Below, piece after piece: positions 61,144-64,000 of a DNA stretch of 64,000 bases. The first letter of the stretch is position 1; every line of letters begins with the position of its first letter. Both the position numbers and the translations under genes were made by a program. The DNA is taken from the NCBI RefSeq assembly GCF_025950095.1, contig NZ_JAPDDR010000007.1, forward strand, positions 124,001 through 188,000, given 5' to 3'. The DNA comes from Luteolibacter rhizosphaerae (lineage in GTDB: Bacteria; Verrucomicrobiota; Verrucomicrobiia; Verrucomicrobiales; Akkermansiaceae). The notes below the pieces were generated by a model. That model made no database searches. It saw only the letters and a program-made list of their open reading frames with translations, and was not told the DNA's origin.

Positions 61144-61157
61144 GAAAATTTCTCAGC
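61139..61157. terminator. Palindrome containing both stop codons of convergent genes
   Basis: GCTGAGAAAATTTCTCAGC includes the TGA of pfkA (61141-61143) and the TGA of the acetyltransferase gene (61153-61155, read on the minus strand). It can fold as a 7-bp hairpin in either transcript. Confidence 0.5.
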
Positions 61158-62058
61158 CGCTCTCCGGGAGGAAGGTCGGCATGATGATGCCTCCCGGCGG
61201 TGAGAAGCTGCCGCGGACTTGGGCAAAGTGGATTTCCACATTGCGCGCACCCCACTTGTATAGCTCTGCGATCAAGTAGGACTCGTGGGTGCCGATGAGG
61301 AAAACCGGCGAGCCGCCGCGGGCCTGTGAAAGCTGCATGTGCAGAAGGGCCAACGCGGCATTTTCGTCGCGCATCACGCCGGGCCCGATCATCCGGCAGC
61401 CAGCGTGATCGACGGAGGAGAGCCAGCCATCGATCTTCCCCGAGGGAGCGATGTGGACGAAGGTGGTCCAGTAACCGCCGGGATTGCGGACGAAATGGGC
61501 GAGGTCCTTCGCCCGCCGGATGCCGGAGATCTCTTCCTCCAGATCGGCCATGCCGAAAAGGTGGCTGACATTGGCCATGCGCACGCTGCCCGGGCCGGCG
61601 GGCGGCGGCGGCAACTCGACATCCGGGGGAATCCGCATGTCCTGATAGACCGCCACCGGACCAAACCCCGCCCGGGTATAGAGCGAATAAGAATCGAGGT
61701 TCATGGCGCTGGAGACCAAGCGCAGGGGAAGATCCTCGGCGCGCTTGATCACCTCGTCCAAGAGGGCCTTGCCCACGCCCTTGCCGGTAGCTTCCGGTCG
61801 GACGGCCATGATTCCGACCCCCACATGGGTTTCCCGCGGGTGGTAGAAGCAGGCACCCACAATCTTGCCCTCATCTTCCGCGACCAGACAGCAACCCGGA
61901 TCGAGAAGCTGATAGGTGTCGATGAAGATTTTGCAGTCCTCCGGCTTCCCGGTGAAGATTTCGTGACCGAGCTTCGCCTTATACCAGGCGTTGGTGGATT
62001 CGTGGATAAGGGTGCCGACGGTGCTCGCCTCGTCGGAACTCATGGTCCTGATGGTCAT
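61153..62058 (-). CDS. GNAT-family N-acetyltransferase
   Basis: Start at 62058 (301 residues). The N-terminal half is a GNAT domain: CCLVAEDEGKIVGACFYHP, then VGIMAVRPEATGKGVGKALL with the acetyl-CoA pyrophosphate loop, and SYSLYTRAGFGPV. The C-terminal half (about 165-301) resembles a second, degenerate GNAT-like fold (WLSSVDHAGCRMIGPG; ALLHMQLSQARGGSPVFLIG) without the loop. The substrate is unknown; such two-part proteins are common in soil bacteria. It is divergent from the peptide operon at 62238, with 179 bases between. Confidence 0.8.
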   Translation of the reverse strand: MTIRTMSSDEASTVGTLIHESTNAWYKAKLGHEIFTGKPEDCKIFIDTYQLLDPGCCLVAEDEGKIVGACFYHPRETHVGVGIMAVRPEATGKGVGKALLDEVIKRAEDLPLRLVSSAMNLDSYSLYTRAGFGPVAVYQDMRIPPDVELPPPPAGPGSVRMANVSHLFGMADLEEEISGIRRAKDLAHFVRNPGGYWTTFVHIAPSGKIDGWLSSVDHAGCRMIGPGVMRDENAALALLHMQLSQARGGSPVFLIGTHESYLIAELYKWGARNVEIHFAQVRGSFSPPGGIIMPTFLPESG

Positions 62059-62237
62059 GGCGGCACAAAATTGGCCGACGCCGGGCGAACGGTCCATGAG
62101 TTTTCGCGGGTGCATACCCCCATCTTCACGATGCACCGAAAATCACTGGAATAATCCGAAGGGCAACGAATCTTACTCAAAGCGCCCGAAAGCCGATGCT
62201 GTCCGGGCTCCAACCAAAACCACCAACAAGCAACCCA

Positions 62238-62681
62238 ATGAAAGCCTCGAATGCACTCGTGGCCGCCGCACTCGCCGGCGCACTCGCCGCCGGTTCCACC
62301 GCCTTCGCCGCCAGCTTCGTGCCCGGTAAGGACAAGGACAAGGATGACTGCCCCGGCAAGGACAAAGAGAAGAAGGAAGAAACCGTGATCTCCGGGGACA
62401 AGGAAAAGGACAAGGACGATTGCCCGGACAAGGACAAGGAGAAGGAAAAGAAGGAGCTCGTGATCTCCGGCGAGAAGGACAAGGACAAGGATGACTGCCC
62501 GGACAAGGACAAGGAGAAGGAAAAGAAGGAAGTCCTGATCTCCGGCGAGAAGGACAAGGACAAGGACGACTGCCCGGACAAGGATAAGGACAAGGAGAAG
62601 AAGGAACTCACTTCCCTTTCTGGCGGCGACAAGGAGAAGAAGGAAAAAGTCAAGGAGAAGGAAGAGGAAGAGATCCTCTGA
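62238..62681 (+). CDS. Putative secreted RiPP precursor with four DDCP repeats
   Basis: Start at ATG 62238 (147 residues). Residues 1-24 are a typical Sec signal peptide (hydrophobic core, AFA before the cut). The rest is low-complexity and very rich in Lys, Asp and Glu. It holds four near-identical units of about 25 residues, each with KDKDDCP followed by KDKEK-KE and ISG. The only cysteines are residues 38, 62, 87 and 112, spaced 24, 25 and 25. The next genes encode a DUF692/MNIO enzyme and a DUF2063-like partner, the pair that modifies Cys in secreted peptides such as HvfA and bufferins. The repeats are therefore probably core sites for Cys modification. The DDCP context differs from the EGKCG motif of HvfA. 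Metal binding after modification is an inference. Confidence 0.75.
   Translation: MKASNALVAAALAGALAAGSTAFAASFVPGKDKDKDDCPGKDKEKKEETVISGDKEKDKDDCPDKDKEKEKKELVISGEKDKDKDDCPDKDKEKEKKEVLISGEKDKDKDDCPDKDKDKEKKELTSLSGGDKEKKEKVKEKEEEEIL
62328..62624 (+). repeat. Four direct repeats of about 75 bases encoding the DDCP units
   Basis: Units at 62328-62396, 62397-62471, 62472-62546 and 62547-62624 are very similar at the DNA level (each has GACAAGGACAAGGA followed by TGC CCG). This suggests recent expansion by unequal recombination. Confidence 0.85.
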
Positions 62682-62698
62682 TTTCACCTCAACGGACG

Positions 62699-62729
62699 CC
62701 CCGCGGCCAATCGGTGCCGCGGGGTTTTT
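62699..62729 (+). terminator. Rho-independent terminator between precursor and modifying enzyme
   Basis: A 9-bp perfect GC stem (CCCCGCGGC at 62699-62707, GCCGCGGGG at 62716-62724) is followed by TTTTT. It lies 17 bases after the precursor stop and 26 bases before the enzyme start, so it probably lets most transcripts end after the precursor. Confidence 0.85.
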
Positions 62730-62755
62730 CCGTCTCTAACAAGCGGCTTCAGGTC

Positions 62756-63619
62756 ATGGGCAACTCGCGCTTCACATCCGGCGTGGAACTGGCCACGGGC
62801 ATCGGCCTGCGGGTGCCGCACTACAATCACATCCTGTCGGAAAAGCCGGCAGTGGGATGGTTCGAGATCATCTCGGAGAACTACATGGTGGAGGGAGGAC
62901 GGGCACTTTCGGTGCTCGACCGGATTCTCGACCAATACAAGGTGGTCCAGCATGGCGTGGGCATGTATCCGGGCGATGCCGGTGGCGTGAAATTCGAACA
63001 CCTGCGGCGCCTCAAGCGGCTAGTTCGACGGACAAAAACGCCGTGGATTTCCGATCATCTCTGCTGGGGCAGCGTGGATGGCAGCATGAGCCACGACCTG
63101 CTACCGATCCCCTTCACCTTCGAGGCGGCGAAGAAGACCGCGGAGAACTTGCGGATCGCCCAGGACTTCCTGGAGATCCCGCTGGCGATGGAGAACGTGA
63201 GCAGCTACGGCGAGTTCAAGGACAACCAGATGACCGAGTGGCAATTCCTCGCCGAGGTCTGCGAGCTTGCGGACACGGGAATCCTGCTCGACGTGAACAA
63301 CATCTACGTTTCCTCCATCAACAACGGCTTCGATCCGATGGAGTATGTGAACTTCGTGCCGGCGGAACGCGTGGCACAGATTCACATCGCCGGACACTCG
63401 CGCTACCAGCGTTTCGTCGTGGATACGCACGATCATCCGGTGGTCGATCCGGTGTGGAAGCTTTACGAGCGAGCCATCGAACGCTGCGGTCCGGTGGCCA
63501 CCTTGCTTGAATGGGACGGCCGGATTCCCTCCTTCGAGGAGGTGTGGACGGAGGCCAAGAAATCGGAGACCTGGCGCGATACCGCGCTGGCAAAACGAGA
63601 GGAAAATGCGGCCGCTTGA
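62756..63619 (+). CDS. DUF692/MNIO-family multinuclear iron oxidase (BufB/HvfB-like)
   Basis: Start at ATG 62756 (287 residues); an upstream GTG at 62714 lies inside the terminator and is unlikely. The TIM-barrel family signature is complete: GIGLRVPHYNHIL at the N-terminus, SDHLCWG (about residue 99), MENVSSYGEF (about 144), LLDVNNIYVSSIN (about 177), QIHIAGH (about 208), DTHDHPV (about 223) and LLEWDG. These supply the His, Asp, Glu and Asn ligands of the iron centre. Known members (MbnB, TglH, BufB) use oxygen to convert Cys in peptides into heterocycles or related groups. The likely substrate is the DDCP precursor encoded just before; the partner gene overlaps by 14 bases. Confidence 0.9.
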   Translation: MGNSRFTSGVELATGIGLRVPHYNHILSEKPAVGWFEIISENYMVEGGRALSVLDRILDQYKVVQHGVGMYPGDAGGVKFEHLRRLKRLVRRTKTPWISDHLCWGSVDGSMSHDLLPIPFTFEAAKKTAENLRIAQDFLEIPLAMENVSSYGEFKDNQMTEWQFLAEVCELADTGILLDVNNIYVSSINNGFDPMEYVNFVPAERVAQIHIAGHSRYQRFVVDTHDHPVVDPVWKLYERAIERCGPVATLLEWDGRIPSFEEVWTEAKKSETWRDTALAKREENAAA

Positions 63620-64000
63620 GCAGATCCAGCGCGAGTTTTTCGCAGCGCTGCAGATGCCACTGCGTGGCAGCAGCCGCCGGAGCACGCATCTGCCGCCTAC
63701 GGACGAAGGACATTCGACCGAGTTTCTCACCAAGGCGGAGGAGCTGATGGCGGGGGGGGAGAACTTATCCCCGGCCGAGCGCTTGGAGCTTTATCACCGG
63801 CAGTATTGGTTCCGGGTGCTGGAGTCGGTGGCGGAAGATTTCCCGCATCTGCGACGGATGGCGGGCGAGCAGAAGTTCTGGGAGATGCTGGAGGCCTACC
63901 TGCAGGCGTATCCTTCCGGAAGTTTCACGCTGCGGCATCTCGGCCGTTCGGTGGCGAAATTCATCTCCGGATGGCAGGGACTTGATCCCACGCAGAGACT
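63606..64000 (+). CDS. DUF2063-like RiPP partner protein (BufC/HvfC-like), 3'-partial
   Basis: The frame opens at ATG 63606, overlapping the MNIO gene by 14 bases, and runs off the window after 131 codons. The visible part has an N-terminal helix (PLEQIQREFFAAL) and the family core ERLELYHRQYWFRVLESVAEDFPHLRRMAG, followed by MLEAYLQAYPSGSFTLRHLG. It resembles the helical N-domain of DUF2063 proteins, once called DNA-binding but now known as partners that bind the MNIO enzyme and the precursor. The overlap implies co-translation. The C-terminal part is outside the window. Confidence 0.82.
   Translation, partial: MRPLEQIQREFFAALQMPLRGSSRRSTHLPPTDEGHSTEFLTKAEELMAGGENLSPAERLELYHRQYWFRVLESVAEDFPHLRRMAGEQKFWEMLEAYLQAYPSGSFTLRHLGRSVAKFISGWQGLDPTQR

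Follow-up and report, generated by a model that had tools for sequence, protein, structure and literature searches.

The window analysed here, a stretch of 64,000 nucleotides from Luteolibacter rhizosphaerae (G000:C7:124001-188000 in the 6.2-Mb source genome), has at its end an operon of three + strand genes, in which a precursor gene is followed by an MNIO gene and a partner gene, as in bufferin-type clusters. The features of the locus are as follows:

62147..62176, +: promoter-like element, TGGAATAA-N16-TCTTAC, 91 bp upstream of the precursor ATG
62238..62681, +: precursor (A gene), 147 aa, with a signal-peptide-like N-terminus (by eye) followed by KD/KE-rich repeats, of which four carry a single DDCP
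62328..62609, +: tandem repeat array inside the precursor gene (TRF: period 75 bp, 3.8 copies, 88% matches)
62698..62729, +: GC-rich stem-loop with a T-run, terminator- or attenuator-like, between the precursor and MNIO genes
62756..63619, +: MNIO (DUF692, PF05114) enzyme of BufB type, 287 aa, assigned by Pfam, NCBIfam, PDB match and alignment
63606..64000 (runs past the window), +: DUF2063 (PME-type 1-like) partner, complete at L002:5606-6490, 294 aa

The layout described in the original prediction was real, but the operon end given there, 64000, cuts the partner gene, which is complete in L002.

Genes and expression signals of the operon

The precursor starts with MKASNALVAAALAGALAAGSTAFA, and a further in-frame ATG lies upstream at 62196. 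As had been predicted, the 147-aa product is rich in Lys, Asp and Glu (38 K, 25 D and 21 E), and its four Cys (residues 38, 62, 87 and 112; spacings 24, 25 and 25) all lie within KDKDDCP. At least two DDCP arose in 1 of 100,000 shuffles of the 122 residues beyond residue 25. The Pfam scan of the precursor returned no family, including the DUF2282 domain that defines bufferin 1, no NCBIfam precursor model was reached, which counts against the explanation favoured below, and the EGKCG repeats that define oxazolin captophorins are absent from the sequence; the earlier statement that the Cys context is neither EGKCG nor DUF2282 was therefore borne out. AlphaFold2 returned a model with a pLDDT of 48, a pTM of 0.14 and no strands, and this low-confidence model is consistent with a disordered chain. 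An EGKCG-like beta-helix was rejected on the same model, which is weak ground because the alignment held just 7 rows.

The second gene starts at ATG 62756, with GTG 62714 as a possible alternative. Its product matched PF05114 with 329 bits (cut-off 25) and the MNIO_BufB model NF050167 with 327 bits (cut-off 310), in agreement with the predicted DUF692 enzyme, and reached 229 of the 360 bits needed for the HvfB model. The closest solved structure was 3BWW (E 2.6e-41). Across 76 MNIO rows, 28 H/D/E/N/C positions were invariant, metal-site motifs included, among them H66, H101, E146, N147, D179, N181, N182, H210, H214, D223, H225, D226 and E252. By way of the 3BWW alignment, D223 and H225 presumably lie at or beside D242 and H244 of HvfB. 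Ala variants of these two HvfB residues are described as inactive in PMC13419390. The gene is the one PF05114 gene of the whole source genome, and the enzyme is 74.545% identical to that of Luteolibacter pohnpeiensis KCTC 22041 (L067), the same value being obtained for the enzyme of the family member G105, whose precursor is also identical to that of L067.

The partner gene, whose ATG at 63606 overlaps the MNIO end by 14 bp, directly follows the enzyme gene, and its product matched DUF2063 (PF09836) with 53.6 bits (cut-off 27.2), so that the predicted overlapping DUF2063-like partner was recovered. It stayed below the threshold of the HvfC model (44 of 142 bits) and had no PDB match at E up to 1.

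Around the operon, the genes scanned encode phosphofructokinase and GNAT upstream, DUF5069, EamA and GntR-aminotransferase downstream, and one secreted-looking flanking protein without a family. The GNAT-family acetyltransferase gene (61156-62106, -) is divergent from the operon, and a similar gene occupies this position, by eye, in five loci of the genus (L004-L008). Two findings count against the favoured explanation: no flanking gene scanned appears related to copper, and the operon lacks DoxX, which belongs to the core genes of bufferin clusters and has its four matches in this genome on other contigs.

The promoter-like element, whose second part follows after 15-16 bases (by eye), resembles ECF-sigma promoters. 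TGGAATA was located 91-101 bp before the ATG in 11/16 related loci versus 0/55 bufferin-2 loci, and a looser two-part pattern in 11/16 versus 3/55, frequencies that were counted in the same loci from which the element had been picked. The pattern TGGAATAW-N15/16-TCNTAY occurs once in G000, at the precursor locus, which argues against a wide regulon; given the pattern length, a single occurrence would also fit chance. A sigma-70-type promoter was not found in 62050-62800, and no sigma factor could be tied to the element.

Sigma genes were encountered in sister clusters. At L064:3245-5001 and L066:3189-5001, a CKGKDGCKGKDGCKG-type precursor lies about 1.5 kb upstream of the MNIO gene with an ECF-like sigma gene between them; the L064 sigma gene matched the Pfam sigma-70 regions above cut-off. 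Both clusters also encode a Cys-bearing protein without a Pfam family that may be an anti-sigma factor, and in L037 a DoxX gene precedes the sigma gene. Control of the window operon by such a sigma pair was rejected, the putative anti-sigma being unmatched in 18 genomes of the genus in a search run with no positive control. According to PMC12452194, sigma genes are reported in Buf1 but not Buf2 clusters.

The stem-loop at 62698-62729 had a z of -3.4, and 2 of 200 shuffles folded as well. By a strict rule, a stem was detected in 8/9 DDCP, 3/7 CxGK and 22/55 bufferin-2 loci (L033, L017, L026, L027 and L056 had none by this rule), with at least 5 T in 8 bases beside it in all 8 DDCP loci and at least 4 T in 13 of the 22 bufferin-2 loci. 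Since the stem also occurs in 22/55 bufferin-2 loci, it is typical of DDCP operons but no hallmark of them. It may raise the level of precursor mRNA over that of enzyme mRNA.

Distribution and precursor motifs in related genomes

Within the genus, the precursor was found in 7/18 genomes and PF05114 in the same 7/18, so that all 7 genomes having either have both. In the family, the precursor profile A1 matched 16/260 genomes and PF05114 39/260, 32 of them above cut-off. Precursor matches occurred in 15/386 genomes of the order sample, all within the same family, and in 6/387 of the phylum sample, one of them outside the family (L143) and again with an adjacent MNIO gene. A pattern search gave 587 matches, none of which was upheld by tblastn. 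The original prediction had named precursor homologues occurring mostly without DUF692 genes as evidence against itself; the opposite was found, because in 16/16 family genomes with a precursor match the next gene downstream on that strand, by match coordinates, is an MNIO gene. The distance from the precursor stop to the start of the enzyme match was 55-139 bp in 15 loci, the precursor of G009 being split over two contig ends, and a partner match adjoins the MNIO gene in 16/16 loci (that of L017 being a fragment of 42 aa at the end of a contig). The reverse is not true, as other MNIO genes of the family are preceded by bufferin-2-type or other genes.

Two such other genes were noted. Distant MNIO genes in L042:973-1323, L043:913-1320 and L044:973-1320 (E 8e-34 to 2.5e-36) directly follow a gene for a secreted-looking protein ending in CPGCGLG, possibly another MNIO substrate, again with Cys-Pro; the L042 protein had EF-hand matches below cut-off. 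In L024:776-1465 and L023, a Cys-bearing protein is encoded upstream of the MNIO gene, and that of L024 has a Tat/lipoprotein-like N-terminus and ACIGGNSCANLGACG, which makes it an odd candidate substrate.

The eight intact DDCP-type precursors contain 3-7 repeats and 3-7 Cys, so that binding capacity may be tuned via copy number. In G009, the assembly breaks inside the repeat array (G009:C19:1-408 and G009:C10:1-201; L005 and L010), and repeat numbers of draft genomes may therefore be too low.

Sister loci encode precursors with nearly the same N-terminus (e.g., MKTTNALVAAALAGVFAAG) and a C-terminal IL or II, with other Cys motifs: KDKCNGKDGCPGK and KDKCNGKDGCEGK in L017, CSGKDGCKGK in L029 and L034, and GCPGKDGC[PK]GK in L032 and L056. 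At L069-L143 (Acidobacteriota, Verrucomicrobiota and others), the enzymes are 61-71% identical and mostly accompany bufferin-2 precursors such as CKGKNSCKGKGGC. The residues around Cys were counted in three sets: a DDCP set of 32 Cys from 8 of the 9 loci (G009 left out), a CxGK set of 36 Cys from 7 loci, and a bufferin-2 set of 314 Cys from 55 loci, namely 52 of the 75 loci L069-L143 with a regex-found precursor and 3 of 4 second-cluster loci (L022 missed). The DDCP set had K at -3, D at -1, P at +1 and K at +3, each at 32/32 sites. In the CxGK set, K-3 was found at 34 sites, G+2 at 31 and K+3 at 36, with S12, K11, N4, P4, E3 and D2 at +1; in the bufferin-2 set, K-3 was found at 211, K+1 at 235, G+2 at 204 and K+3 at 154, with K235, A57, S11, G3, N2, Q2, H2, E1 and R1 at +1. 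Pro thus follows Cys at 32/32 DDCP-type sites versus 0/314 bufferin-2 sites.

We read these precursors, from their sequences, as one continuous series from bufferin-2-like CKGK through CSGKDGCKGK and CPGK forms to DDCP; the change would have run from bufferin 2 towards DDCP. The BufA2 model NF050166 (cut-off 60 bits) matched neither the window precursor nor two further DDCP forms; among the CxGK sisters, 18 bits (E 0.0024) were reached by one of three and the other two had no match, and two canonical bufferin-2 relatives reached just 33.5 and 36.4 bits.

The original prediction had proposed a separate new class and had not considered the bufferin-2 (BufA2) type. This part of it was not supported: the enzyme scores above the BufB cut-off, and the intermediates in sister genomes link the family to bufferin 2, for which reason a class without relation to bufferins was rejected. 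A modified, exported and metal-binding product, as it had suggested, is plausible.

The deltaproteobacterial MAG locus L103 encodes, upstream of its MNIO, a precursor with CSGKSGCSGK, a DKKK-repeat linker and DSCSGKNGCGGK; it has no clear signal peptide and may represent another, parallel instance of a charged linker.

Enzyme relationships and the fate of the DDCP cysteines

In an IQ-TREE phylogeny of 41 MNIOs, 20 bufferin-2 enzymes were split (support 100/99) from those of the DDCP, CxGK and sigma-cluster loci, which grouped together. DDCP and CxGK labels are interleaved in this clade. Because G125 and G126 (CxGK) sit among DDCP rows on well-supported branches, the DDCP type takes two changes, whether gains or losses. 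The search for enzyme residues that track DDCP versus CxGK yielded solely position 283 in the ragged C-terminus and no column inside the fold.

The explanation we favour, and consider probable from the comparisons above, is a bufferin/captophorin-type operon with a derived, charged, repeat-expanded precursor, in which the Cys would probably be converted to 5-thiooxazoles ahead of export and serve to bind copper. The MNIO-DUF2063 complex would recognise the precursor N-terminus in the cytosol, each Cys would lose four electrons (-4 H) to become a 5-thiooxazole, and the modified precursor would then be exported by Sec; once in the periplasm and under metal stress, its repeated sites would bind Cu(I) or a different soft metal. 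The DDCP motif would be a drifted CxGK bufferin-2-like motif, in which paired Cys gave way to a single one and Pro was fixed after it, and the sites would be spread along a charged, probably disordered chain of variable repeat number. Gene order, homology, the motif series, co-occurrence, the stem-loop and the common upstream element are observed, whereas the direction of the change and the modification of the DDCP precursor, its chemistry, export, metal and regulation are inferred. According to PMC13097082, all characterised MNIO-PME1 cases install 5-thiooxazole, and the products generally bind Cu. Antoine et al. (PMC12452194) report that bufferins protect against copper and give preliminary evidence that the signal peptide is recognised.

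One point against this explanation concerns the residue after Cys. According to PMC13097082, FonBC, an EGKCG-type enzyme, tolerates Pro at none of the five positions of its repeat and leaves substrates unprocessed in which Cys is followed by a charged residue; the authors suggest that the selectivity for Cys differs between families and is separate from the installation of thiooxazole. Given this result, the present clade accepts Pro, or its product differs, or the Cys stays unmodified. A different product, Pro blocking the usual thiooxazole geometry, is unlikely in our judgement. Besides the FonBC result, the occurrence of Pro at every DDCP site and at no bufferin-2 site speaks for it, as do six residues (G69, P72, G77, L132, L143 and F200) that are fixed in the clade relative to bufferin-2 enzymes. 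However, these residues are fixed with DDCP or CxGK precursors alike, CP is already present at 4/36 sites of CxGK precursors, and the enzymes of L033 (DDCP) and L034 (CxGK), which are 92.3% identical, serve one precursor type each. That near-identical enzymes serve both types favours a clade that accepts Pro.

The last of the three outcomes, a decaying or repurposed charged cation-binding chain with Cys that are no longer modified, appears the least probable of all. Cys density does fall along the motif series, the C-terminal repeat copies of the G004 precursor lack Cys, and so does the last stretch of the window precursor; yet positions -3, -1, +1 and +3 are strictly kept at all 32 DDCP sites, precursor and MNIO remain together in the 7/7 genus genomes having either, and no bufferin-2-type precursor was found in G000. 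It is also quite improbable, in our estimate, that the same machinery and chemistry serve a target other than copper, such as another metal, calcium or oxidative stress. A division of labour is suggested by G001, G009 and G010, in each of which a bufferin-2 cluster (with a DoxX gene in L013) stands apart from the DDCP-family cluster, and PMC8692599 cites links of DUF692/DUF2063 operons with high calcium (Pseudomonas) and with gold and copper (Legionella); against this stands the general binding of Cu by characterised MNIO-PME1 products noted above.

A further reading, to which we give slightly less than an even chance, is that this MNIO lineage forms 5-thiooxazole at Asp-Asp-Cys-Pro, or oxidises the Cys there in another way, on a disordered, length-variable charged chain, yielding a copper-binding repeat protein with a coordination unlike that of EGKCG or DUF2282 products, and that the clade accepts Pro, Lys, Ser, Asn, Glu or Asp after Cys. 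If so, DDCP would give rise to a thiooxazolyl-prolyl unit, in which the ring is not followed by an amide N-H. The enzyme scanned in PMC13097082 rejected Pro. As close relatives, whose enzymes share up to 92% identity, have CK, CS, CN, CE, CD and CP sites, the requirements of an MNIO around its target Cys are testable on native pairs. The series also suggests a route from a compact 6-Cys bufferin to a long, charged repeat protein.

Comparison with known Cys-rich precursors

Our literature search found no paper joining bufferins with Verrucomicrobi or MNIO with Luteolibacter, published occurrences of 'kddcp' were unrelated by title, and the supplementary tables of Antoine et al., which lie outside the search, may list DDCP precursors. 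Among precursors described as secreted Cys proteins encoded beside MNIO and DUF2063, the CxxxxC type (Antoine et al. 2025, PMC12452194) differs from the window precursor in that the latter has a single Cys per unit, and its sister forms have C-x5-C; Lactamase_B_2, a frequent CxxxxC neighbour in that source, was not among the short list of flanking genes scanned. Bufferin 1 has the MNIO-partner operon in common with the window, whose precursor has no DUF2282 match. The EGKCG captophorins (fontiphorin, oxazolin/HvfA and gonophorin) likewise combine a repeat precursor with an MNIO and a PME1-type partner and have one candidate Cys per unit, whereas the window precursor has DDCP instead of EGKCG, a longer unit and Pro after Cys.

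Bufferin 2 (BufA2/Buf2, Buf_6/12Cys) shares with the window operon the signal-peptide-like N-terminus, the A-B-C gene order, an MNIO of the BufB model, the DUF2063 partner, and Lys at -3 and +3 of Cys. Unlike bufferin 2, the window precursor has 4 Cys rather than 6 or 12, spaced 24-25 residues apart, each preceded by Asp-Asp and followed by Pro; it has no BufA2 model match, and its operon lacks DoxX; median K+D+E contents are about 55% for the DDCP type versus 19% for bufferin 2. The DDCP operon appears to be an unusual, highly charged offshoot of the bufferins and not a wholly new system.
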